Below, one piece after another: positions 47,383-60,702 of a stretch of DNA of 64,000 bases (position 1 is its first letter; each line of letters begins with the position of its first letter). The stretch is from Thermoprotei archaeon (lineage in GTDB: Archaea > Thermoproteota > Thermoprotei > Thermoproteales > B15-G16). The position numbers and the translations under genes are program-made. Under the pieces are notes generated by a model that ran no database searches, had not been told where the DNA came from, and saw nothing but the letters and a program-made list of their open reading frames with translations. The stretch spans positions 207,048-271,047 of the forward strand of contig QMRC01000003.1 of the NCBI GenBank assembly GCA_003649205.1. The letters run 5' to 3'.

Positions 47383-48093
47383 ATGCCAAGTGAGAAAGTT
47401 CTTGAGATAATTAACTCTGTAAAATCTGAAGGTAGGAAAGTACTGACATTTTATGAAGCTATGAGGCTAGCTGCTGAGTACGGGTTACCAGTACCGAGAG
47501 TATTTCTCGCAAAGAATCCAGATGAAGCTGTTGAATATGCTAAACAAGCGGGTTTTCCTGTTGTGCTTAAGATAGTTTCGCCAGACATAACTCATAAGTC
47601 GGATATTGGTGGTGTTGTGGTTGGGTTAAATAGTGAGGAAGAGGTTAGGAAGTCATTTACGGAAATCATGGAACGGGTTAAGGTCAAAGCACCAAGTGCT
47701 AGAGTTCACGGAATATGTGTACACCACATGGCTCCATATGGAAGGGAAGTCATCATTGGTGGTATCGTTGACGAAACCTTTGGTCCAGTAATAATGTTTG
47801 GTCTTGGAGGAATCTTCGTTGAGATACTTAGAGATGTAACATTTAGATTAGCGCCACTAACTAGAGAAGAAGCTTGGGAAATGATTGAGAGTATTAAGGG
47901 TGCACCCATACTGAAGGGTTATAGAGGTGAACCGCCAGCAGATCTCGATGCGCTCGTAGATACTATGGTTAAGGCATCTCAAATGCTCAGCGACCTAGCT
48001 GATTACGTTCATCAGCTAGACCTCAATCCAGTGTTCGTATATGAGAAGGGTAGAGGAGTTAAGATCGTTGACGTCAGAGTAGTGCTCAAGTAA
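47383..48093 (+). CDS. ADP-forming acyl-CoA synthetase beta subunit (ATP-grasp)
   Basis: 236 aa from the ATG at 47383, preceded by GGTGATTCCT. The ATP-grasp domain shows AGFPVVLKIVSPDITHKSDI and GGVVVGLNSEEEV near 50-85, then IFVEILRDVTFRLAPL. In hyperthermophiles these subunits pair with an alpha subunit to make ATP from acyl-CoA and ADP. No alpha subunit is nearby. Its 3' end overlaps the convergent DUF61 gene by 8 nt. Confidence 0.88.
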   Translation: MPSEKVLEIINSVKSEGRKVLTFYEAMRLAAEYGLPVPRVFLAKNPDEAVEYAKQAGFPVVLKIVSPDITHKSDIGGVVVGLNSEEEVRKSFTEIMERVKVKAPSARVHGICVHHMAPYGREVIIGGIVDETFGPVIMFGLGGIFVEILRDVTFRLAPLTREEAWEMIESIKGAPILKGYRGEPPADLDALVDTMVKASQMLSDLADYVHQLDLNPVFVYEKGRGVKIVDVRVVLK

Positions 48094-48565
48094 GTTTACC
48101 CTCTTCCTTCAAGCTTCTAAATTCCTCAAGTAAGTACTTTGTTGAAAATACGTACTGAGTTGTTGTCCTTAACTTTTTCCTAACCTCACATAGCTGAGAC
48201 CTGTACAAATACATAGCATCTACCTTCTCAGGTCTAATACCTAGTACCTTAGATATCACCTCGACTTCAAGCACACCCTTAACGACACCAACTAACTCAC
48301 TGAAGGATGGATCTATTTCTATTAGTATTGGGAGGAGAAGCTCATCGGCTCTATCCTCACCAACGATACTGAGTAAGTACTCCAATTCTCTCCTCTTAAA
48401 GACATGCACTCTACCATCTCTACACAGTACATGAGGAATATCTTCCTCTAGTAATTGTTTCAATGTCTTTCTTCTCTGAGGTAAATGAGCATTAGCTATT
48501 CTAAGCTCCTCCTTAAGATACTCCTCAAGAAGTCTATAATCCCGATCATTCACTATACTATACAT
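48086..48565 (-). CDS. UPF0216/DUF61 family protein
   Basis: 159 aa. The pattern ELRIANAHLPQRRKTLKQLLEED, RDGRVHVFKRRELEYL and LLLPILIEIDPS is that of the archaeal UPF0216 (DUF61) family, whose function is unknown. It overlaps the stop of the ATP synthase D gene by 1 nt and is the last gene of the A-type ATPase operon on the minus strand. Confidence 0.8.
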   Translation of the reverse strand: MYSIVNDRDYRLLEEYLKEELRIANAHLPQRRKTLKQLLEEDIPHVLCRDGRVHVFKRRELEYLLSIVGEDRADELLLPILIEIDPSFSELVGVVKGVLEVEVISKVLGIRPEKVDAMYLYRSQLCEVRKKLRTTTQYVFSTKYLLEEFRSLKEEGKLT

Positions 48566-49203
48566 TAACTCCCTCTCCTCCTACTTAAAACAACCTTAAT
48601 TCTCTTCAATCTAGCTTTATCCTCTCTCTCCCTCTCCTCGAACTTCATTCTTAAGTACTTGATTGTTGCTTCAATTCGTGGTATAACAATGTACTCGAGA
48701 GCATTGACTCTTCTCCTCATTTTAATGATTTCTAGAGATAGCCTTTCCATTGTCTTCTCAAGCTCTGCTAACTCAATGAGTTCAGGGAGTAGTTCCCTAC
48801 ATGTTCTAACTGCGTCATCTACGTAGCTAGAAGTTATGTAGAGTGGGTACAGTGGTGGCTTCACCTTAGATTCGAGAACCGGTACGGAAAGTCCTAAGAT
48901 ATTCCTCGTAGCAACCAGTATGGTCACGTACTTAGGTAGTATAGAGGCAATACTCTCACAGACCTCTAAACCATTCATACCTAGTGCTAGAGATACCTTG
49001 TCATAAGACTTAGCAAGCAGCTCAACAACTCTACTTCTCTTCTCTATTGCTTCTCTAGCATGTACTAAGTACTCATTAACTAGCAGGGATAATCTATCCT
49101 TGAGTATCCTATGTATCTTCCTCGCAAGTGCTAATCTCCTTCTCAAACGAATGAGCTCTATCTTGGTTGGTCTAACCCTGAGTAGACGAAGTGTGTGAGC
49201 CAG
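48565..49203 (-). CDS. atpD: A-type ATP synthase subunit D (start codon non-canonical)
   Basis: The first ATG/GTG/TTG in frame is a TTG at 49146, but the conserved family N-terminus ([18 protein letters not shown]) begins upstream of it. The frame is open to a stop just before, with no ATG, GTG or TTG; a CTG at 49203 has AGGAGAGGTCGAGAAG ahead, so I place the start there (213 aa), overlapping subunit B by 32 nt. Subunit D is the central rotor shaft, two long antiparallel helices. Start position is uncertain; product is sure. Confidence 0.9.
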
Positions 49204-50623
49204 CTTCTCGACCTCTCCTATATTTTGGATGGTACCTCTCTATTAGCTCAGGTCTAATCAGTTTGAGCTCCTCTTCCGGTAACATAGCTAGTAGGTCCCA
49301 AGCTAGATCTAGAGTATCCTCAATGGATCTCCTCTCATACTCTCCCTGGTTGATGAACTTCCTCTCAAATACGTCAGCAAACTCTAGGTACTTCTTATCT
49401 CTTGGACTTAGTGCTTCCATGCCAACAATAGATGCTATCTCTCTCAGGTGACAGCCTTCAGCGTATGCTGCGTAGAGCTGTCTAAATACGTATGGGTGAT
49501 CTTCTCGTGTCTTTCCTTCACCAATCCCTTCCTTCATTAGTCTCGAGAGTGATAGGAACACATCAACTGGTGGGTAGATCCCCTTTCTCTGTAGGTCTCT
49601 AGACAGCACTATCTGTCCTTCAGTTATGTAACCAGTGAGGTCAGGTATTGGGTGTGTTATATCGTCATCTGGCATCGTCAGTATTGGCATTATCGTTATT
49701 GAGCCTTTCTTACCCCATATCCTACCTGCTCTCTCGTATATGGTAGCTAGGTCTGTATACATGTAACCTGGGTAACCTCTCCTACCTGGAACCTCCTCTC
49801 TCGCTGCAGATATCTCTCTCAGTGCCTCACAGTAGTTTGTCATGTCTGTGAGTATCACTAGTACGTGCATATCATGGTACCATGCTAGGTACTCAGCTGC
49901 TGTTAAAGCTGCTCTTGGAGTTGCTATTCTCTGAATGACAGGATCCGCTGCTGTATTTATGAAGACTATTGTCCTATCTAGGATACCTGCCTCTTTGAAG
50001 TTCCTTATGAAGAATGCTGCATCGTCATACGTAACACCTATAGCTGCGAAGACTACGGCGAACTTCTCCTCCTTACCTCTTACAGTTGCTTGTCTCACTA
50101 TCTGTGCGGCTATCCTATTGTGTGGTAGTCCTGAACCTGAGAATATTGGTAACTTCTGACCTCTAACAAGTGAGTTAAGACCATCTATAGCTGATATACC
50201 TGTCTCAATGAATTCAGAAGGAGGCATTCTCGCTGCTGGATTAATTGGTGCACCGTTGATATCTAGGTACTCTTCAGGTACTATCGGTGGTCCGCCATCT
50301 ATTGGTCTACCGAGACCGTCGAAGATTCTACCCAACATATCTAGTGATACAGGTAGCTTAAGGGTTTCTCCTCTAAACCTTACACGGCACTTCACCATAT
50401 CGACTTCACTTACACCACCGAATACCTGAATCACAGTGACGTCCTTACTAACATCAATTACTTGACCGTACCTAACTTCACCACTACCTAGCTCAACCTC
50501 AACTATCTCGCCGTACTTAACACCTGGAACAGTCTCAACAAGGAGTAGAGAACCTTTTGTAGCTCTTAGAGATGAGGTTTCCCTATAGCACAGAGGTACC
50601 TTAGGTACCTCCATAGTACTCAT
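49172..50623 (-). CDS. atpB: A-type ATP synthase subunit B (non-catalytic)
   Basis: 483 aa from the ATG at 50623, two bases after the subunit A stop, with GGAGGTG upstream; a frame extension to 50647 is less likely. The RecA-like fold is complete (for example [34 protein letters not shown]) and the catalytic P-loop Lys is absent, as normal for B. It forms the A3B3 ring with subunit A. Confidence 0.95.
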
Positions 50624-50624
50624 A

Positions 50625-52406
50625 CTACCCAACACCTCCTGCACCAAACTTACTACCTAACTCCATGAACTCTCTCTCAAGCTCCTTCTCGTACTCCTTA
50701 ACCTTCTCAACAACCTCTTCATTCCTCATGAACTTCAACCTAGCTATAGTCGTCCTAATGGGTAACTTCCTAATCTCAGCAACAGGAATACCGGAATCAA
50801 CAGCTTTCACACCATGTTCATAGAACTTAATGATTATCCTCAACATAGAGTACGTCTTCTCAGGAGCTGAGTAACAGTCAACTGGATCAAATGCGTCCTG
50901 CATCAAGAAATCCTCTCTAATCATCCTAGCAACTTCAAGAACTAACTTATCCCTCTCAGGAAGTACCTCAGGACCGACTAACCTAACAATTTCCTGTAAT
51001 TCAGCTTCCCTCTGAAGCAACTCCATAGCCTTATCTCTCAAGTACCTCCAATCCTTACCAACTCTCTCACCCCACCACCTCTCAACAGTATCAACGTACA
51101 GACTATAGCTGATTAACCAGTTGATTGCTGGGAAGTGCCTCCTATTTGCTAGAGCTACATCGAGAGCAAAGAGACATCTAACGATTCTGAGTGTGTTTTG
51201 TGTAACCGGCTCACTGAAGTCCGCACCTGGTGGCGACACTGCACCAGCTATCGTTACTGAACCTATTCTCCTCGGATTACCCAGACACACTACCTTACCT
51301 GCTCTCTCGTAGAACGAAGCTAGCCTAGACCCTAGGTAAGCAGGGAATCCCTCTTCACCAGGCATCTCCTCTAACCTACCACTAATCTCCCTCATTGCCT
51401 CCGCCCATCTAGATGTTGAGTCAGCAACTAGAAGCACATTGTAACCCATGTCCCTGAAGTACTCAGCAATTGTAACACCTAGGAATACACTGGTCTCTCT
51501 AGCTGCTACAGGCATATTCGATGTATTTGCTATGAAGATTGCCTTCTCTCTAAGAGGTCTTCCGGATCTTGGATCTCTTAACCTGAGAAAGCTGTGAAGT
51601 GCATCGGCCATCTCATTGCCTCTCTCACCACAACCAACATATATGTGGATCTGTGCATCAGCCCACTTAGCGAAGGTCTGTAGTAGAACTGTCTTACCTG
51701 TACCGAAACCCCCAGGTACAGCTGCCGTACCACCCTTAGCTAATGGAAATAACATATCTATAACCCTGACTCCTGTTATCAACGGCTCATCTGGATCAAG
51801 TCTCTGTACATAGGGTCTCGGCTTCCTTATAGGCCACAGCTGGTACATCTTGACCTCATACTTCTCACTACCACGCTCTACAATAGCTACAGGTTCCTCA
51901 ATTGTGTAATCACCTTCAGGAACAACCTCCTTAACAACACCGTAGATACCTGGTGGAACCATTATCTTGTGCTCAACAAGTGGAGTCTCTTGAACAATAC
52001 CGATGATATCTCCTTCACCTACCTTATCACCAACCTTCACAAGTGGTTTAAAGTGCCACTTCTTGTCCCTAGGGAGAGAGTACTCCTTAACTCCTCTTCT
52101 AACGAAAGGACCCACTTTTTCAGTTAATACCGATAACGGTCTCTGTAATCCATCGTAGACCGTGCCAATGATTCCTGGACCTAATTCAGCACAAAGAGGT
52201 CTACCTGTACCAACTACCTTATCACCAACACTTAGACCTGAAGTATCTTCATATACCTGAATTATTGCTCTATCACCATCAAGACCAATTACCTCACCAA
52301 TTAACCTATCCTCACCAACCTCAACAACTTCGTAAACCTGAACACCCCTCATACCTTCAGCAATCACTAGAGGTCCTGAGATCCTATATATTCGACCAAC
52401 TACCAC
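50625..52406 (-). CDS. atpA: A-type ATP synthase catalytic subunit A
   Basis: 593 aa. The P-loop GGFGTGKT near residue 235 and the family GER motif (GCGERGNEM) mark the catalytic subunit. The non-homologous bulge region specific to A subunits is present at about 110-200. It hydrolyses or synthesises ATP in the A3B3 head. It is in line with F, C, E upstream and B downstream. Confidence 0.97.
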
Positions 52407-52418
52407 ATTGATACACCT

Positions 52419-52757
52419 CTAAATCTCAACTTCGAAGCCTATAGTTCTCCTATGTAAATCCTTATACACTTTACGTGCATCATAGCCAGCAACCTCGGTT
52501 ATCCCAGGTAAGAAAACAACAATGGGTGTGAGCTTACCCCGTACCCTCTCAAGCAGATCAGCAACAGCACCCCTATACCTCTCCTCAACAACTACAACAC
52601 CAACATCATCCCTCTCAAGAATCTCTTCAAGAGCCTTCCTAGCACTAGCTACATCATAGACCTCGTAATACAATTCAGCGCCCGCAAACCTCATGACAGA
52701 GACCAGAGCTTTACCACCGATAACACATAGCTTGACCTCACGAGCAATAGCCCTCAC
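52419..52757 (-). CDS. atpF: A-type ATP synthase subunit F
   Basis: 112 aa. The N-terminal Rossmann-like core VKLCVIGGKALVSVMRFAGAEL and DDVGVVVVEERYR match the V-type F subunit, which caps the rotor shaft. It lies 6 nt after subunit C and 12 nt before A. Confidence 0.88.
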   Translation of the reverse strand: MRAIAREVKLCVIGGKALVSVMRFAGAELYYEVYDVASARKALEEILERDDVGVVVVEERYRGAVADLLERVRGKLTPIVVFLPGITEVAGYDARKVYKDLHRRTIGFEVEI

Positions 52758-52763
52758 TAAACA

Positions 52764-53828
52764 TCACCTCCTTCTCGGAGAAAGTAGGAGACTTGAAATC
52801 AAAGTTCTCAACACCTTAACCTCCATCTCCTTAAGCATCATTACAGATACAACATCAGAAATCGTGAACTGTGGTCTCTTAGCTACATACTCAACAATAC
52901 CCAGGAAGTATTCCTCAACACAACGTTCAAAATCAGTAACCTCACGGACTCTAGCCCTAGACAACTCGCTGTACACCGTTTCACGAAGTACTCTAGCAAA
53001 ATCACTAACAGCAATACTAATGAGCTTACTAACCTCACGATCACTAAGCAAGTAACCAGACCTAGGGATAGCTCTCGATAGTATGTGCTCCTCAACACCC
53101 ATAACCTTGCACCTAAGTACATTCAACATGAGCTTCAGATCATACTCAACACCAGAGAGAAACTCAAGTACTGGATCGCCGCAATCCCTCAAATCACAGA
53201 CATACTGCCAATAAAGTCTAGACTCAATAGGTAGTATGTAGCTAATATCCTTAACCTCTGGGGCCAACTCCTCAATTAGATCACCATACCTACCTAAGCC
53301 ACATTCACGAAGTAACTCAACTAAATCATTAACACTAGCTACTTCACACAACTTAGCTAGCAACCCCCTACTCTCAATAACACCAAGAGGAACAAGATCT
53401 TCAACTCTAATCCTAGCACCAGTAACTAGTGAGGTTAAGGAGATGACTATGTTATGTAGGTCATACCTCCTAAGGTAGGTATAGATCCTAGATCTCCACT
53501 TCTTAGGAATACGACTCATAAGGTAGTGTATTGTGGAAACTAGGTGGGACCACAAAGCCTTAGAGATCTCACCAAAGTTAGATCTCTCTATATGGCTGAG
53601 AACCACCTTACCGATTTCAGTACCCTTAATAACGGGTATCAACTCTTCAACACTACTCAACCTACCAATCAACCTATGTAGCGCCTTAACATCACACAAC
53701 TTACTGAGTACACATTGAGAAGCTGCTGTTGCTGGTACAATATCGGACCTACCTAACCTACATCGATACATTAGTGTATTGACTATAGCATACACAGAAC
53801 TTGGTTTACCGTAGCACTGAAACACCAT
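52764..53828 (-). CDS. atpC: A-type ATP synthase subunit C (d-like)
   Basis: 354 aa, helical, with the three-lobed C/d family pattern: YAIVNTLMYRCRLGRSDIV near the N-terminus and EYDLKLMLNVLRCKVMGV near 225-242. It connects the central shaft to the membrane ring. It lies between E and F in the standard order. Confidence 0.9.
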   Translation of the reverse strand: MVFQCYGKPSSVYAIVNTLMYRCRLGRSDIVPATAASQCVLSKLCDVKALHRLIGRLSSVEELIPVIKGTEIGKVVLSHIERSNFGEISKALWSHLVSTIHYLMSRIPKKWRSRIYTYLRRYDLHNIVISLTSLVTGARIRVEDLVPLGVIESRGLLAKLCEVASVNDLVELLRECGLGRYGDLIEELAPEVKDISYILPIESRLYWQYVCDLRDCGDPVLEFLSGVEYDLKLMLNVLRCKVMGVEEHILSRAIPRSGYLLSDREVSKLISIAVSDFARVLRETVYSELSRARVREVTDFERCVEEYFLGIVEYVAKRPQFTISDVVSVMMLKEMEVKVLRTLISSLLLSPRRR

Positions 53829-53833
53829 GGGCT

Positions 53834-54442
53834 TTATCCCTGAAAGAGCAACTTAGCTATATGAGGAAGCAATTTACTTCTAACCTGCTTCAACCTAGCA
53901 TCATAAGTATTAACTATCTTGACCTTACCATCTAGAGTCTCAACAACTACACCACCATCAATATCATCTCTAGGTATGACCTCAGCAATGAACTTACCAA
54001 CCTCTAAATTACTTCTCAACCGCTCTACAACCTCTAGATCCCTTTTACTAACGTAAATTCTAACACCTGTACCCTCACCAACCTCCTTAATGGATTCAAG
54101 TATTAGGTTCCTCAGTGAGTTCTCAACATTAAAACCTCTCCTCTCTCGAAGACAACTTTCAACCTCTCTCATCAACTCATCGAGTATCTTCACCTTCTCA
54201 CTAGTAATCTTCAAGTACGATTCTCTCCTAGCTTCAGCAATCTTCCTACTAGCTTCAGCTCTGTACTCCTTAATCACCCTCTCTTTCTCCTCCTTAATCC
54301 TTTCACTACGCCTACGTTCGGCCTCCTCAATAATCTTCTTAGCTTCCTCCTCAGCTCTCTCAATAATCTTCTTAGCTTCCTTCTTAGCTTTCTCCAGTAC
54401 AGCTGATATTACCTTATCAATACCTGTACTCACGAAGTTCAC
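53834..54442 (-). CDS. atpE: A-type ATP synthase subunit E
   Basis: 202 aa. The N-terminal 90 residues form a long charged helix (AKKEAKKIIERAEEEAKKII), then a globular C-terminal domain. E and H/G form the peripheral stalk. Its ATG immediately follows the subunit K stop (54443/54442). Confidence 0.92.
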   Translation of the reverse strand: MNFVSTGIDKVISAVLEKAKKEAKKIIERAEEEAKKIIEEAERRRSERIKEEKERVIKEYRAEASRKIAEARRESYLKITSEKVKILDELMREVESCLRERRGFNVENSLRNLILESIKEVGEGTGVRIYVSKRDLEVVERLRSNLEVGKFIAEVIPRDDIDGGVVVETLDGKVKIVNTYDARLKQVRSKLLPHIAKLLFQG

Positions 54443-54910
54443 CTACCACCCAATCAATGTGAATCCGAGCAGCGTGAATACCATAGCAAGTATTGCGAAT
54501 AGCTCAATGTACACGATCAGCATGAGGTACTCAGGTGGCATGGTACCAGCTCTAGGTAGAGATGATATTGCATTAGCAGCTGCCTTACCTTGGTATATAG
54601 CTGAGATCAGTTCAACGATACCACACCCTGCACCTAATGCAGCTACCATAGATGCAGTACCCAGTGTTATCGTAGCTGCCTTAACCTTACTGAGTATGGT
54701 GAAGTATATTATGAAGCTATAGAAGCACTGTGTCATAGGTAGTGAAGTTAGCACTATAACGTTTCTTGCTTGTCTCCTATCTTCTGTAATCACTGCTAAT
54801 CCAGCGAATACAGCAATAGCGACGCCAATAGCTGAACCTATTGAACCCATAGCTAGTACAGAACTAGCTGTGAGAGCGGTTAATAGGAGTGCTAATGTGG
54901 TGGCTTCCAT
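54443..54910 (-). CDS. atpK: A-type ATP synthase subunit K (c ring, duplicated hairpin)
   Basis: 155 aa with four transmembrane segments in two hairpins. The ion-binding Glu is kept in the second half (E136 in IVYIELFAIL), while the first half has Gln61 (PMTQCFYSFI) at the matching place, as in other duplicated archaeal K subunits. Therefore one ion is carried per duplicated subunit. Coupling-ion type cannot be read safely. Confidence 0.93.
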   Translation of the reverse strand: MEATTLALLLTALTASSVLAMGSIGSAIGVAIAVFAGLAVITEDRRQARNVIVLTSLPMTQCFYSFIIYFTILSKVKAATITLGTASMVAALGAGCGIVELISAIYQGKAAANAISSLPRAGTMPPEYLMLIVYIELFAILAMVFTLLGFTLIGW

Positions 54911-54928
54911 AGAGGTCCCAAGTAGGTT

Positions 54929-56905
54929 TCACTGACTAGGTTTTAAGTGTATTCTTTTGACTGTTGTGATCTTCAGTGGCGTGTATTCTATTCCTCCACC
55001 TTCGTAGAACTTGGTCAAGAATTCGACGAAGCACAGTCTAAGTGAGTGGGCAAAGCAACCTATAGCGCTGAGTGCTAGGAATAGTATGTGAACAGGTATT
55101 AGTAGTGCAGTAGCTACAATTATACCAAGACCAAGACCTACGACAGGTACTGATGCCGCTATGGCATTGGCTAGTAAGCTACCTATTATGTTCATGCTCC
55201 TAGCTAGATAGTACGTTGAAAGTGCTAATCCAGCAATTCTACAGTATGAAAGTACATCACCTAGTAGACCTGTTAGGTCGAATACCCACGATATGACACC
55301 CATACCCTTGTTCGTGATTATGTGACTTAGTATGAGTAGTCCGAGAGCGAGGTATATACCGGTTACTAGGTTAGATGGTTCGACGGGTAGTGGGAGATTG
55401 ATCTTCAGAAGTTTAGTGATGACGTATGGTATGCCGAATAGCTGAAGGAGAAATAGTGCCATCTTGTTTATTGCTAATCCCCAATTCTTCATAATCATAG
55501 CTCTTCTCATGGCTAGTGCATGAGCTAGATCGACGTGAAGTAAACCGATAAGTAGTGAGAGCGCTATTAAGAATCCTGGGTCTGTCATCTGCTTCACTAT
55601 GGCTAAGTTCACCTCATGACCAATTATGACACTCGGATCTCCTAAGTACGTACCTGAGAGCACGCCAAATACCATAGCTGATATCGCTGCTATCATCAAC
55701 ATCCTCTTAAAGAGCTTAAACCCTTCACTCTCTGGATTTTCAACCAGTTTATCGAGTACGAAGAGTGCTGCAATAAGTAACCCAGCACCATAAACGACGT
55801 CACATAGCATCAGTCCGTAGAATACCGTGAATGAGTATGCTAGTACAGGTGTAGGATCCCAATCTCCATACCTCGGTACGCCGTAGAGCTTAGTTAAGAG
55901 TTCAAAGGGCTTTACTGCTCTAGGATTTCTCATCTTTGTTGGTGCATCCTTAGCAACTTCATAACTTATGTAGTAGGGAATCTTCGATTCTTCGAGAAAT
56001 CTTGTGAAGTTACTGAACTCCGATACTGGTACCCAACCCCTAACGTAGTTTAGGTACTGTGTTGTAGCTAGCTGAAGAATAGCTCTCAATCTCTCAATCT
56101 TAATCAACAGTAGTTCTCTGACCTTAACTAGGTCCTCAATATTATTCTCGACGACTGACGATATTTCATTTCTGAGCTTGATTTCAAGTTCTTGAAGTTC
56201 CTTAATCCTTGTACTTAACACATTGAAGTACTCAGAAATGCTGAGTTCAAGTTTCGGTAACTTAACAAGCTTACCACCTAACTCCTCAATTAACTTCAGC
56301 AACTTATCGTAATCCTCCCTACTACCTGCAATCACAGCAAATACTTTCTCACCATAGGACCCAACATGTACGATAACACTTTCACGAAGGTACTTAGCTA
56401 GTGAAGTAGTGAATCCCTCAAAAGCTGACTTAGGTACACACACTACAACGCAGTACACATACTTGGTAACGATATCTAGATCACGTAACTTAGCATTTAA
56501 CTCACGAAGAGCGTAAACAACCTCATACGTACTACGTAACTCATCCAACTCTCTAGCTAAATTCCTCAGTCTGGAGTCAATTTCCTCAATTTCAGAAACT
56601 ACCTTCTCAATCTTAGGTAGAAGTCTCTTAAGCTCCTCATCAATACTGTACACGAAACGAATCTCAATTACTTTCTCCTCACGAAAAAGAGCAATTACAG
56701 AATTCAATTTCTCTAAGAGCTTACTAAACCTAGTTATCTCATTCTCAATCTCCTTACGAGCCTCAGCAGGTACCTCCTCCTTTACCTCAGCTAGATGGAG
56801 AACACCACTTCTATGCACGTACTCCATCAGTACATCACGGAAGTCTCTAGGGACAACTAACGTGATCCAGTACATGTCCTCTGGTCGAGAGATGAGAATA
56901 GGCAT
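54929..56905 (-). CDS. atpI: A-type ATP synthase subunit I (a)
   Basis: 658 aa. The N-terminal ~340 residues are soluble with coiled coils; the C-terminal half has about eight transmembrane helices and the conserved segments FGLMLCDVVYGAGL-like residues near 360-380 and LSYCRIAGLALSTYYLAR (Arg, ion path) near 550-567. It is the stator membrane subunit. Its ATG overlaps the H subunit stop. Confidence 0.95.
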   Translation of the reverse strand: MPILISRPEDMYWITLVVPRDFRDVLMEYVHRSGVLHLAEVKEEVPAEARKEIENEITRFSKLLEKLNSVIALFREEKVIEIRFVYSIDEELKRLLPKIEKVVSEIEEIDSRLRNLARELDELRSTYEVVYALRELNAKLRDLDIVTKYVYCVVVCVPKSAFEGFTTSLAKYLRESVIVHVGSYGEKVFAVIAGSREDYDKLLKLIEELGGKLVKLPKLELSISEYFNVLSTRIKELQELEIKLRNEISSVVENNIEDLVKVRELLLIKIERLRAILQLATTQYLNYVRGWVPVSEFSNFTRFLEESKIPYYISYEVAKDAPTKMRNPRAVKPFELLTKLYGVPRYGDWDPTPVLAYSFTVFYGLMLCDVVYGAGLLIAALFVLDKLVENPESEGFKLFKRMLMIAAISAMVFGVLSGTYLGDPSVIIGHEVNLAIVKQMTDPGFLIALSLLIGLLHVDLAHALAMRRAMIMKNWGLAINKMALFLLQLFGIPYVITKLLKINLPLPVEPSNLVTGIYLALGLLILSHIITNKGMGVISWVFDLTGLLGDVLSYCRIAGLALSTYYLARSMNIIGSLLANAIAASVPVVGLGLGIIVATALLIPVHILFLALSAIGCFAHSLRLCFVEFLTKFYEGGGIEYTPLKITTVKRIHLKPSQ

Positions 56906-57210
56906 TACACATCACCACTCACAATCTTGAGAACATACACCTTCACAGATTCCCAATTCCTCTTAGCTTGCTCCCTAATCTTCTCAATGGTTCTCTCAGT
57001 TTCCTCACGAATCTTCTCAATCTCTCTACATGTCTCCTCATCAATTTTCCTAATCTCATCCTCAATACCAGAGATCTCGATAGGTCTGCTCAGTAACTCG
57101 CTAGCTCTCTTTCTAGCCTCCTCAATTATCCCATTGGCTCTCTTTCTAGCCTCCTCAATAACTCTCCTAGCCTCCTCTTCAGCTCTCTTCAGCTCATCTA
57201 CAAACGACAT
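56905..57210 (-). CDS. atpH: A-type ATP synthase subunit H (G-like stalk)
   Basis: 101 aa from the ATG at 57210 (a frame start at 57231 is less likely). Almost entirely helical with heptad character (DELKRAEEEARRVIEEARKRA), as in peripheral-stalk H/G subunits. It is the first gene of the operon, directly opposite the hydrogenase maturation gene. Confidence 0.85.
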   Translation of the reverse strand: MSFVDELKRAEEEARRVIEEARKRANGIIEEARKRASELLSRPIEISGIEDEIRKIDEETCREIEKIREETERTIEKIREQAKRNWESVKVYVLKIVSGDV

Positions 57211-57240
57211 GTAGGTACCCAGTGGTCGCATATAGCTTTC

Positions 57241-57250
57241 AATATTTAAC
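57241..57250. promoter_or_regulatory. Shared near-palindromic TATA-like element between ATP synthase and hydrogenase operons
   Basis: AATATTTAAC on plus reads GTTAAATATT on minus. A start about 25 nt to each side would fall near 57220 (ATP synthase) and 57270 (hydrogenase), matching both ATG positions with short or no leaders. Confidence 0.5.
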
Positions 57251-57269
57251 CTTTCTCGTGAAGAAACTA

Positions 57270-57812
57270 ATGAGGTTACTTGACTTGACAGGAGTAATGG
57301 TATTTAGGTTAAGTGACGTAGAGAAGCTCGAAGGGTATCTACGTAGCTTGATTAGGGGCAAGAAGTACATAGTCATGTGTGTAGGTAATGTACTGAGGAG
57401 AGATGATGGAGTAGGGTCGTACGTAGGTAGTAAGCTACTTGACTACGGTCTTCAGGATGTGGTAATTAACTGTGAGATGTGTCCTGAAAACTACATCGGC
57501 AAACTCCTCAGCATCGACGTCGATTTAGTACTTGTGATTGATGCTCTCCTTGATGAGAGGTACAGTGTCGGTACTGTCATAGTGACGAAATTACCGACTG
57601 CAGTAGAGGACCTTATCCCTGTAACAACACATACAATACCCCTCAACTACCTTGTTAACGTAGTGAAGATGTTTAAATCAGATACAGAGTTTTACTTACT
57701 CGGTATTGTTGTTCGAGATCTTGAATTTGGAGAGGGTCTCTCTCCTGAAGTTCATCAAGTAGCTGAAAAACTCATCAAGGTCTTGAAAAAGGTACTGAGT
57801 GAACATGGTTAA
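57270..57812 (+). CDS. [NiFe] hydrogenase maturation protease
   Basis: 180 aa from the ATG at 57270; an ATG at 57297 with AGGAG ahead is an alternative. VGNVLRRDDGVGSYVG is the HycI/HyaD signature, with an Asp in VIDALL and a His in THTIPLNYL completing the nickel-sensing site. It trims the C-terminal extension of the hydrogenase large subunit after Ni insertion. It heads the hydrogenase cluster. Confidence 0.88.
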   Translation: MRLLDLTGVMVFRLSDVEKLEGYLRSLIRGKKYIVMCVGNVLRRDDGVGSYVGSKLLDYGLQDVVINCEMCPENYIGKLLSIDVDLVLVIDALLDERYSVGTVIVTKLPTAVEDLIPVTTHTIPLNYLVNVVKMFKSDTEFYLLGIVVRDLEFGEGLSPEVHQVAEKLIKVLKKVLSEHG

Positions 57813-57813
57813 C

Positions 57814-57822
57814 ATTTATTAG
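57814..57822 (+). promoter_or_regulatory. TATA-like box before the hydrogenase small subunit
   Basis: A TTTATTAGG motif lies about 36-40 nt before the ATG at 57856, so the structural genes may also be transcribed from their own promoter. Confidence 0.35.
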
Positions 57823-57855
57823 GACATTGTCTAGTGTATGTAGCAGTGAAGTGAC

Positions 57856-58314
57856 ATGGCGCTACTCAGTAGGCTACGTACATGGGCACTCACTAGATCA
57901 CCATGGATACTCCACTTCAATACCGGTGCATGCAATGCCTGTGACATCGAGGTTCTAGCAGCTCTCACACCTAGATTCGATGTCGAGAGATTTGGCATAC
58001 TACTCAAGGGATCACCGAGACATGCAGACATCCTAGTAGTCACTGGACCAGTCACAAGACAGTGCGCACCTAGATTGAGGAGAATATACGAGCAGATGCC
58101 TGAACCGAAGTTTGTAATTGCTGTAGGTACATGTGCCTGTAGTGGAGGTGCCTTTCAAGGTTGCTATGGTGTGTTAGGTGGTGTAGATAAGGTGATACCA
58201 GTCGACATGTACATTCCTGGGTGCCCACCTAGACCTGATGCTATTGTTGAAGGTATAGCTAAATTACTTGAGAAGTTGAGGAGAGGTGGTTCATCTGGTA
58301 GAGGTAGAGAGTGA
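57856..58314 (+). CDS. Group 4 [NiFe] hydrogenase small subunit (NuoB/MbhJ-like)
   Basis: 152 aa. The proximal cluster ligands are GACNACDIE (C26, C29), GTCACSG and PGCPPRP. The first pair is spaced CxxC as in hydrogenases, not CC as in complex I NuoB. It passes electrons between the NiFe site and the ferredoxin-like subunit. It overlaps the next gene by 29 nt. Confidence 0.92.
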   Translation: MALLSRLRTWALTRSPWILHFNTGACNACDIEVLAALTPRFDVERFGILLKGSPRHADILVVTGPVTRQCAPRLRRIYEQMPEPKFVIAVGTCACSGGAFQGCYGVLGGVDKVIPVDMYIPGCPPRPDAIVEGIAKLLEKLRRGGSSGRGRE

Positions 58315-58756
58315 GGTTGCTGAGTACCTACGTACTAAGCTAGGTGATAAATTATTTGGGGTAGCAACACCAAAGAAGTTGAGAGTCGTTGTGAGAGTTA
58401 GCTCAGATGCTGTTAAATCATGTATTAGAGCTATTCAGGAGAAGTTCGGTGATGTCCACTTAACTACGATAACAGGGTGTGACCTAGGTGAGGAACTTGA
58501 GCTTACGTACCACCTACATCTGTACGCTAATAACGTACACATCATGGTCAAGACTAAGGTACCTAAGAGTGAGCCGAAAATCGATACGATAACTGATGTC
58601 ATACCTGGTGCAGTACTGTACGAGAGGGAAGTCTATGAGATGCTTGGTATACAGTTCATAGGTCATCCAAAGCTTGAGAGGTTGTTCCTACCAGATGATT
58701 GGCCTGAAGGAATTTACCCACTTAGGAAGGACTGGAGACCGGAGGGTCTAAAGTAG
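58286..58756 (+). CDS. NuoC/MbhK-like hydrogenase subunit (30-kDa family)
   Basis: 156 aa. The C-terminal signature YEREVYEMLGIQFIGHPKLERLFLPDDWPEG (in parts) is that of the complex I 30-kDa/NuoC family. It binds the large subunit. It begins inside the small subunit gene and stops one base before the large subunit ATG. Confidence 0.9.
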   Translation: MVHLVEVESEVAEYLRTKLGDKLFGVATPKKLRVVVRVSSDAVKSCIRAIQEKFGDVHLTTITGCDLGEELELTYHLHLYANNVHIMVKTKVPKSEPKIDTITDVIPGAVLYEREVYEMLGIQFIGHPKLERLFLPDDWPEGIYPLRKDWRPEGLK

Positions 58757-59932
58757 ATGTCGACAATAGACCTGATACTAGGTCCCCAACACCCAGCATT
58801 TAAGGAACCAGAGAGGTTCCTCTTCAAAACTGAGGGCGAGATCGTAGTTGATGTTGAGCCAAGACTAGGCTACGTCCATAGAGGTATTGAGAAGGCATTC
58901 GAGATGAGGAACTACATTCAGGGACTCTACCTAGCTGAGAGAATATGTGGGATATGTAATGTAGCTCATACACTATGTTACGCACAGGCAGCTGAGGAAG
59001 TCTACGGTGTTGAGGTACCACCAAGAGCTAGGTACCTTAGAGCTGTAATTCACGAACTCAATAGAATTCACAGTCACCTACTGATAATTGGTGTAGCTGC
59101 TGAGTTAATTGGCTTTGACACTCTCTTCATGTTGATCTGGAGGGACCGTGAAATAGTGATGGATCTCGTAGAGATGATGACTGGTAATAGAGTCATATCA
59201 GCATACATAACGATAGGTGGTGTTAGGAGAGACGTATCACCTGAATTCATTGAGAAAGCTAAGAAGATGCTCACTAAGCTAGAGGAGAGAGTTAAGTACT
59301 ACAGGAAGGTATGGATTGAAGACCCAATCATTAGAGCTAGATGTGTTGAAGTTGGTAAATTGAGTAAGGCGGATGCTATTAAGTTGTGTGCAGTAGGTCC
59401 AACAGCTAGAGGCTCAGGTGTTAACTATGACGTTAGGAGACATAGACCATATGCAGCATACGACGAGATACCATTCAATGTAGTCCTACGTGAAGAAGGT
59501 GATGTATGGGCTAGAGTTCTCTGTAGAATAGATGAAACTCTCGAAGCAATAAATATCGTGAAGTACGCACTAGACCACCTACCAAGTGGCGACATAAGGG
59601 TTAAGGTACCTATTAGACCACCACCAGGTGAGGGAGTAGCATTCGTAGAGGCACCTAGAGGAGAACTACTTCACCACGTATACAGCGATGGTACTGACAA
59701 ACCATATAGGTGGAGAGTGAGAACACCAACCTACGCCAACATACCAGCGGTCTGCCACATGTTCAAAGGCTGCTACATAGCTGATATACCAGCAATACTA
59801 GTCTCAATAGACCCCTGCTTCTCCTGCACAGATAGAGTAACAATCCTCGACATAAGGACTAATGAGAGGAAAATCTTAACCTGGACACAACTCAAGAAGA
59901 TGTTTAGAGAGTTCAGGAGGCCAAAGGCATGA
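58757..59932 (+). CDS. Group 4 [NiFe] hydrogenase large (catalytic) subunit (NuoD/MbhL-like)
   Basis: 391 aa. Both nickel-ligand pairs are intact: RICGIC (C64, C67) and DPCFSC (C354, C357). This separates it from complex I NuoD, where they are lost. About 31 residues follow DPCFSCTDR, the usual point of removal by the maturation protease encoded upstream. It reduces protons or oxidises H2. It overlaps the ferredoxin gene by 4 nt (ATGA). Confidence 0.94.
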   Translation: MSTIDLILGPQHPAFKEPERFLFKTEGEIVVDVEPRLGYVHRGIEKAFEMRNYIQGLYLAERICGICNVAHTLCYAQAAEEVYGVEVPPRARYLRAVIHELNRIHSHLLIIGVAAELIGFDTLFMLIWRDREIVMDLVEMMTGNRVISAYITIGGVRRDVSPEFIEKAKKMLTKLEERVKYYRKVWIEDPIIRARCVEVGKLSKADAIKLCAVGPTARGSGVNYDVRRHRPYAAYDEIPFNVVLREEGDVWARVLCRIDETLEAINIVKYALDHLPSGDIRVKVPIRPPPGEGVAFVEAPRGELLHHVYSDGTDKPYRWRVRTPTYANIPAVCHMFKGCYIADIPAILVSIDPCFSCTDRVTILDIRTNERKILTWTQLKKMFREFRRPKA

Positions 59933-60273
59933 GACTACCTGCAATAATTAAGGAAACATTTTCTAACCTCTTTAGAAAACCAGCAACAGTGAAGGTACCT
60001 ATTGAGGAGAAGCTACCACCAGCACCAGGGTACAGAGGAGTACCCAGAGTAGACTACAGTAAGTGCACTGGATGTGGTCTCTGTGCTAGGTATTGCCCAT
60101 CATTTGCCATAGAGCTAATTACCAAAGATAAGAGGAGGTACCCAGTATTCCACATATACCGCTGCATATTCTGTCACCAATGTGTAGAGGTCTGTCCAGT
60201 AAAAGCCATTAAGCCAACAGAAGAGTACGAGCTATCTACTGATAGACCAAGTGATCTCATTATCAAACCTTGA
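59929..60273 (+). CDS. Hydrogenase ferredoxin subunit (NuoI/MbhN-like)
   Basis: 114 aa. Two [4Fe-4S] sites: C46, C49, C52, C56 (CTGCGLCARYC) and C79, C82, C85, C89 (CIFCHQCVEVC). It takes electrons from ferredoxin and passes them to the small subunit. It follows the large subunit directly; in Mbh and Ech clusters a NuoH-like membrane subunit normally lies nearby, and none is seen here. Confidence 0.92.
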   Translation: MRLPAIIKETFSNLFRKPATVKVPIEEKLPPAPGYRGVPRVDYSKCTGCGLCARYCPSFAIELITKDKRRYPVFHIYRCIFCHQCVEVCPVKAIKPTEEYELSTDRPSDLIIKP

Positions 60274-60308: not shown

Positions 60309-60375
60309 TAGCCTCCTCGGCAGGGTGACGGGGCGTTAGTCCACGCCCGGGATGAGCCCTGCAGCGCAGGTGATA
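60309..60375 (+). ncRNA. H/ACA guide RNA candidate (GC-rich hairpin with K-turn)
   Basis: GCAGGG (60320-60325) pairs with CCCTGC (60357-60362), and inside it GGGCGT pairs with ACGCCC. Between the two helices, TGA on one side and ATGA on the other form a K-turn, as bound by L7Ae. A lower helix TAGCCT/AGGTGA leaves an internal pocket, and ACA follows at about 60375-60377. This is the layout of an archaeal H/ACA pseudouridylation guide. It overlaps the 5' region of the next gene, so a structured leader is the alternative. Confidence 0.45.
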
Positions 60376-60378
60376 CAC

Positions 60379-60702
60379 ATGTGTTCTCAAAAGGTTAAGA
60401 GCATCAGGATGGAGTTCGTATCTAAGCTACCTCTAGAGGATAAGGAGAAGAAGGTACTTGTATACCTCCTCAAGAAGTCGCTAAAGGCAACACTACATAT
60501 AGAGGAGAAGGTAGCTCTAGGATACCTCTTTAAGGAGCTTGTGGATAAGGGAATTTCACTGCAGGAACTGTCGACAAACCTTGGAATTCCGGTACCTGAA
60601 ATTGAGAGGTTGATTAGAACGTACGAGAGAAAGCAGGATCTACATGAGAAGGCAAAGGAGAGGATTGACAAGCTCTATACGTTCTACTGTTCAGGAACCT
60701 AA
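60379..60702 (+). CDS. Hypothetical protein, 107 aa, HTH-like
   Basis: From the ATG at 60379, which has GGTGA five bases upstream; an earlier ATG at 60352 lies inside the hairpin and is less likely. The region KGISLQELSTNLGIPVPEIERLIRTYER looks like a helix-turn-helix; the rest is a charged helical bundle. Unknown function. Convergent with the 251-aa gene, overlapping by 4 nt. Confidence 0.6.
   Translation: MCSQKVKSIRMEFVSKLPLEDKEKKVLVYLLKKSLKATLHIEEKVALGYLFKELVDKGISLQELSTNLGIPVPEIERLIRTYERKQDLHEKAKERIDKLYTFYCSGT

Follow-up and report, generated by a model that had tools for sequence, protein, structure and literature searches.

Catalytic and membrane-arm genes of different ancestry at two loci of a Thermoprotei archaeon: a predicted split, chimeric membrane-bound hydrogenase

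The origin of complex I, Fpo, the membrane-bound hydrogenase Mbh and the sulfane reductase Mbs is ascribed to the joining of a hydrogenase head to ion-pumping membrane modules, an idea for which the evidence is mostly deep phylogeny. In Pyrococcus furiosus, Mbh (group 4d; PDB 6CFW) is encoded by a single 14-gene operon and is coupled to Na+ (PMC11228991). Within subgroup 4g, the 4g-5 enzymes have all Mbh subunits in a different order, while Hfo (4g-6) is Fpo-like and has no Na+ module; as of Loh et al., none of the 4g enzymes had been studied biochemically (PMC7886697). Here we describe a group 4 [NiFe] hydrogenase cluster found in a window of 64,000 nucleotides from a Thermoprotei archaeon (contig QMRC01000003.1, positions 207,048 to 271,047; G000:C3:20382-84381, minus strand, in our coordinates, in which G000 is the host genome and C1, C2, and C3 are its contigs). 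The cluster, at positions 57222-60273 of the window, consists of a HycI-type protease gene followed by genes for subunits J, K, L, and N, all on the plus strand. We estimate a probability of about three in four that these genes and a membrane arm located on contig C2 encode, in trans, a split, chimeric, Na+-linked Mbh that originated by reciprocal gene loss.

Catalytic genes in the window and a membrane arm on another contig

The hydrogenase genes of the window are as follows (E values of the family matches in parentheses).
57222-57812, plus strand: open reading frame (ORF) of a HycI-type maturation protease (TIGR00142/TIGR00072 match; TIGR00072, 1e-22)
57856-58314, plus strand: MbhJ-like small subunit, 152 aa (Oxidored_q6, PF01058, 2.8e-35)
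58286-58756, plus strand: MbhK/NuoC-like subunit, 156 aa (Complex1_30kDa, PF00329, 1.8e-33)
58757-59932, plus strand: MbhL/NuoD-like [NiFe] large subunit, 391 aa (PF00346/PF00374; Complex1_49kDa, 1.2e-78, and NiFeSe_Hases, 1.1e-14)
59929-60273, plus strand: MbhN/NuoI-like ferredoxin subunit with two [4Fe-4S] clusters, 114 aa (Fer4 families)

A first-pass annotation made from the sequence had described this tightly packed series of protease, small, NuoC-like, large, and ferredoxin genes, and the ORFs with their Pfam and NCBIfam matches bear it out, including the 4-nt overlap between the L gene, which ends at 59932, and the N gene, which starts at 59929. The protease probably begins at 57270 (possibly leaderless) or 57297 rather than at the ORF start, 57222. 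The best PDB matches for the large and small subunits were chains L (E = 1.3e-85) and J (E = 1.8e-52) of 6CFW, and N matched 6U8Y_N and 6CFW_N. The small subunit has the CNAC, GTC, and PGC motifs of one [4Fe-4S] cluster. In the large subunit, the CGIC and DPCFSC motifs are intact as annotated: the four Ni-ligand cysteines are all present in RICGIC and DPCFSC. A cleavable tail of 31 residues extends past SCTDR at the C terminus; in 6CFW, MbhL of P. furiosus stops at the same Arg. Glu17 and Arg20 align to Glu21L and Lys24L of P. furiosus, which are components of the proton and coupling path (PMC11228991); Mbs has no equivalent of Glu21 (PMC7684303). Since the Ni ligands and the Glu21L equivalent are both present, the enzyme appears by sequence to be a proton-reducing [NiFe] hydrogenase and not an Mbs-type sulfane reductase, and we discarded membership of the Mbs/Mbx sulfane reductases because all four Ni-ligand cysteines and Glu17 are retained. 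A small protein of 116 aa without Pfam or NCBIfam match is encoded beside the hydrogenase genes (60352-60702).

No NuoH-like or antiporter-like gene was found within the cluster, and to this extent the first-pass description of a module with no membrane arm holds. It does not hold for the genome: the suggested search for NuoH/MbhM- and MbhH-like genes returned one of each, together on C2, within a nine-gene Mbh-type arm (C2 264.33-269.94 kb; L011 6331-11938). The order is B-C-D-EF-G-A-H-I-M, that is, MbhB/MrpF, MbhC/MrpG, MbhD, a fused MbhE-F, MbhG/MrpC, MbhA/MrpE, MbhH/MrpD, MbhI, and MbhM/NuoH. The Mrp-like Na+/H+ module is complete (MNHE, MrpF, PhaG, MbhD, MnhB/MbhE, and Oxidored_q2 matches), and MbhM (PF00146, E = 3e-67) and MbhH (PF00361, E = 1e-55) lie 0.6 kb apart. 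MbhH has chain H of 6CFW as its best PDB match; for MbhI, which has no Pfam match, a profile search of the PDB ranked chain I of 6CFW first (E = 0.002). Subunits H, M, and A to G keep nearly all of the charged residues that are invariant among other arms. MbhH (L011 9031-10626) has a Glu in place of the Lys of transmembrane helix 7 of P. furiosus, as do the MbhH of genome G181 and the aligned Mbs chain. The 20 kb surrounding the arm contain no J, K, L, or N gene, and the window genes and the arm together make up the full 14-part Mbh set, A to N.

The L, M, and H genes are unique in the host genome (31 contigs totalling 2.07 Mb; completeness 93.8%, reported contamination 4.2%). In genome-wide profile searches the only PF00146 and PF00361 matches were those of the C2 arm, and the only PF00346 large subunit was that of the window, a palindromic duplicate aside. 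That duplicate, at C3:266 kb, was rejected as a true duplication. Wherever the two were compared, C3 (1-291428) is identical to its reverse complement (ca. 80 kb of the 146-kb half, centre included), and the centre of the palindrome, at 145714/145715, lies inside a tRNA-like sequence; the additional cluster copy is therefore most probably an artefact of assembly. About 146 kb have seemingly been counted twice, which may account for much of the 4.2% contamination. Neither locus is at a contig-end break, the arm being at 264 to 270 kb of 323 kb and the JKLN genes 24 kb short of the end of C3. The remaining [NiFe] large subunit of the genome belongs to a group 3 enzyme on C1, a four-gene, sulfhydrogenase-like hydrogenase with large, small, FAD/NAD, and Fe-S subunits (L014 6466-10348), adjoined by a gene for a large glycyl-radical-like protein.

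Gene layouts and discordant ancestry of the two halves

The order of the cluster in relatives, a comparison that had also been proposed, was assessed in 39 loci with related large subunits from named genomes, which were annotated using the proteins of the window and of the arm. Three layouts were found. Type I, from Desulfurococcales, is a single run J-K-L-N-B-C-D-EF-G-A-H-I-M (L044, L045, L047-L050, L056, and L057). Type II has J-K-L-M-N and several antiporters, with a NuoA-like gene upstream of J, and occurs in Thermoprotei metagenome-assembled genomes (MAGs), Bathyarchaeota, Hecatellales, and Odinarchaeota; in several of these loci a HycI-type protease precedes NuoA, giving protease-A-J-K-L-M-N in L035, L039, and L055. 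The third layout lacks M and is that of the window, of some Bathyarchaeota, and of three Pyrodictiaceae-type MAGs. Loh et al. (PMC7886697) assigned clusters resembling types I and II to 4g-5 and Hfo/4g-6, respectively. Type II operons have NuoA and NuoH where the window has none: the window operon corresponds to the type II order minus A and M, its L/N overlap falling exactly at the position of M, and the C2 arm to the type I order minus JKLN. One Pyrodictiaceae MAG, G009 (L051, L100, and L183), has its arm at 33.2 to 38.9 kb of contig C10 and JKLN at 54.0 to 56.6 kb, ca. 15 kb apart, and is a second, independent split Mbh.

Six Bathyarchaeota loci (L021, L022, L028, L041, L042, and L046) have stand-alone JKLN-type genes without NuoH. 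In L021, L022, L041, and L042 these lie amid hyp genes, and next comes an FrhB-like protein, both scanned copies of which (L021 and L041) contain two CBS domains. NuoH was not found anywhere in four of the six genomes with such clusters, which may encode a soluble, possibly F420-linked group 4-type hydrogenase worth study.

The first-pass annotation had left two options, an arm encoded elsewhere or a soluble or unusually anchored enzyme. The C2 arm, devoid of catalytic genes, speaks for the former, and a soluble enzyme was dropped as first choice, given that MbhM, MbhI, MbhH, and Mrp-like subunits exist in the genome. If the window nevertheless encoded a soluble or peripherally anchored ferredoxin-linked hydrogenase, the C2 arm would be an ion exchanger working alone or with another partner. 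The Bathyarchaeota precedents, including the four genomes with arm-less JKLN and no NuoH, and the different ancestry of JKLN and arm described below are in favor of this alternative. We consider it unlikely, since the window has no FrhB-like partner of the Bathyarchaeota kind, the arm includes MbhM and MbhI, which dock JKLN in Mbh and Mbs and are absent from Mrp antiporters, and no other NuoD-like large subunit was found in the genome search.

Alternatively, the halves might belong to two unrelated complexes, each with its cognate partner genes in the 6% of the genome that is missing. In favor of this, the assembly comprises 31 contigs at 93.8% completeness, and genome G181, a comparable case, has a type II K-L-M-N cluster (C201) in addition to an arm followed by K (A-H-I-M-K), with L-N on another contig. 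Yet this explanation, which we regard as quite unlikely, needs two independent gene sets to have fallen into gaps, while both loci are well inside contigs without the expected neighbors and the 4-nt L/N overlap is clean exactly where type II operons have M.

The phylogenies of the two halves were discordant. In the large-subunit tree that the first-pass annotation had called for (62 rows), the window protein grouped with the Fpo-like type II proteins of L019, L020, and L054 (support 99/98; 62 to 66% identity), and a constrained tree forcing it into the type I plus Pyrodictiaceae group was rejected by the approximately unbiased (AU) test (p-AU = 0.0016). The C2 MbhM fell inside the Mrp-arm clade (support 100/100; 60-row MbhM tree), with G181 (50 to 52%) and G009 (48%) as nearest relatives, and forcing it together with the M subunits of L019, L020, and L054 was likewise rejected (p-AU = 5e-6). 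Because both concordant placements were rejected, the catalytic half and the arm have different histories: the former descends from an Fpo-like (Hfo) lineage and the latter from the Mrp-type Mbh/Mbs lineage of Desulfurococcales/Pyrodictiaceae. No close relative of the C2 MbhM appeared among the searched members of the host's order, and inheritance of the arm within that order was discarded for this reason. Judged from its relatives and published subgroups (PMC7886697), the window large subunit would belong to subgroup 4g; its Hfo-like phylogeny is suggested by way of the type II loci, which have the Fpo-like layout, the sequences of Loh et al. being outside the tree.

An arm resembling those of Desulfurococcales/Pyrodictiaceae, and unlike any arm of the host's order, could also mean that C2 was binned from a different organism, and C3 is itself misassembled as a palindrome. 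Composition makes such a binning or assembly artefact very improbable. In tetranucleotide profile, the arm region correlates at 0.68 to 0.70 with C1 and C3 (0.70 with C3) versus 0.50 for the best foreign genome, and the arm flanks and C2 have 44% GC versus 35 to 39% in donor-like genomes; we rejected a foreign C2 contig on these grounds. A housekeeping gene on C2, ca. 5 kb away from the arm, shows no greater similarity to Desulfurococcales than to the host's order and is too diverged everywhere to discriminate. Elsewhere on C2, the segment 100001-120000 (L208) is a tetranucleotide outlier (mean of 0.39 versus the rest of the genome), possibly a mobile or foreign region.

The loop by which the arm would contact the head was compared separately. 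In MbhI, the Glu49-Asp50 pair is in ion-pair contact with L (PMC11228991); the docking loop of the C2 MbhI, YACGEDYTPER, keeps this pair, and the window L has Arg36 in place of Lys40L. The loop shares up to 10 of 14 identities with type II NuoA loops versus at most 5 of 14 with type I MbhI, whereas outside the loop MbhI is of type I. This is only suggestive of a loop suited to docking on a type II head. Basal Mrp-type arms fall in between, and the loops closest to that of C2 do not come from the nearest type II relatives; we set the loop aside as proof of coadaptation.

Proposed assembly and coupling to the adjoining ATP synthase

We interpret the two loci as a split, chimeric Mbh because their gene sets are complementary, both lie in the interior of contigs, the losses are reciprocal, the trees are discordant, the arm is intact and of native composition, G009 offers a parallel split, and the c subunit of the ATP synthase encoded next to the hydrogenase keeps Na+-site residues. 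Reciprocal loss is the simplest account: a type II operon would have shed NuoA, M (NuoH), and the antiporters, leaving protease-J-K-L-N with the 4-nt overlap, while a type I-like operon with an Mrp-type arm would have shed JKLN. G181, which combines a type II cluster with an Mrp-type arm and accompanying catalytic genes, might show the ancestral content. That the result is a working natural chimera, in which an H2-evolving head of Fpo-like (Hfo) type is docked on a Na+-pumping arm of Mrp type from another lineage, seems reasonably probable.

From the gene content we infer how the halves may assemble, in which direction catalysis runs and which ion is used. The window genes would provide the cytoplasmic catalytic module of a ferredoxin-dependent, H2-evolving, energy-converting hydrogenase, the protease maturing L. 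Electrons from reduced ferredoxin would pass through N and J to the Ni-Fe site of L, where protons would be reduced to H2; a conformational or charge signal might then travel through loops of L, I, and M to MbhH, with its proton path, and the Mrp-like part (A to G) would exchange H+ for Na+. The resulting Na+ gradient could be used by the A-type ATP synthase encoded next door.

Several points weigh against the chimera. Assembly of the halves is a prediction from sequence. The window protein grouped with L019 and L020 at only 87/46 in one tree and with L019, L020, and L054 at 69/79 in a second, differently sampled tree; the groups for the AU tests were defined after the first tree had been viewed, and the C2 arm can be placed only tentatively among the basal arms. 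The MbhI loop is short, and its resemblance to type II NuoA loops may be ancestral. Finally, at 93.8% completeness the assembly could lack a further catalytic set or NuoH gene, and the genome-wide uniqueness searches covered L, M, and H.

The ATP synthase operon is complete, as first annotated, and stands back-to-back with the hydrogenase genes on the opposite strand (48565-57231; order H-I-K-E-C-F-A-B-D). Its genes and the shared gap are listed below; subunits E to D were assigned by ORF translation and gene order.
57232-57296, no strand: divergent gap shared by the two operons, with an AT-rich, TATA-like stretch
56905-57231, minus strand: coiled-coil stalk protein resembling subunit H, encoded first in the operon (by ORF and position; no match for the 101-aa form in a Pfam scan)
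54929-56905, minus strand: subunit I (a) (PF01496, 2.7e-26)
54443-54910, minus strand: subunit K (c) (PF00137; alignment to Enterococcus hirae NtpK, 2BL2)
53834-54442, minus strand: subunit E
52764-53828, minus strand: subunit C
52419-52757, minus strand: subunit F
50625-52406, minus strand: subunit A
49172-50647, minus strand: subunit B
48565-49146, minus strand: subunit D

The gap, described before as ca. 60 bp, measures 38 to 65 bp depending on the start codons chosen and surrounds an AT-rich stretch (CAATATTTAACC) that may act as a promoter. The c subunit has two hairpins and one ion-binding Glu, and the alignment to 2BL2 shows conservation of NtpK L61, T64, Q65, Q110, and E139, which we take to be the Na+ ligands. 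As these residues are kept and the arm has Mrp-like subunits, Na+ is the likeliest coupling ion of both the hydrogenase and the ATP synthase. On the far side of the operon there is a gene for a small protein of 159 aa (48086-48565).

Relation to described enzymes and significance

Compared with the P. furiosus Mbh, the host genome has all 14 subunit types, including J, K, L, and N with the Ni-ligand cysteines, M, I, and one H in trans, and the Mrp-like module. L, J, and MbhH find their best PDB matches in 6CFW, and the shared features extend to the Glu21L equivalent, the cleavable tail, and a Na+-type ATP synthase as putative partner. Unlike in P. furiosus, the genes are at two loci, E and F are fused, the order of the arm differs, and the window large subunit is outside the Mbh-linked (4d/4g-5) lineage and does not share Mrp-linked descent. 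The arm is identical in composition and order (B-C-D-EF-G-A-H-I-M) to the type I loci of the Mrp-type 4g enzymes of Desulfurococcales (4g-5, e.g., Thermosphaera aggregans; PMC7886697), but there JKLN and arm form one run with an L of type I, while here they are apart and JKLN are of another lineage. With the Hfo of Bathyarchaeia (PMC7886697) the window shares the catalytic subunits, the protease-J-K-L-N order, and a large subunit within the Hfo-like assemblage. Hfo, in contrast, has eleven Fpo-like subunits in one operon, with NuoA, NuoH, several antiporters, and no Na+ module; here an Mrp-type arm replaces these, and the single PF00146 and PF00361 proteins are both part of it. JKLN and a complete arm are also apart in G009, there on one contig, but its JKLN are sister to the Desulfurococcales type, apparently an unswapped split. 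What is new here is the different lineage of the arm in trans, which predicts a chimeric, split Mbh.

One practical consequence is that no arm-less group 4 hydrogenase cluster should be labelled soluble until the complete genome has been searched. If the proposed enzyme is real, it would be direct evidence for module swaps across long-separated lineages of the complex I superfamily. A traceable swap, together with G181 as a possible precursor and G009 as an unswapped split, would make the idea of module joining testable at the interface of the two halves.

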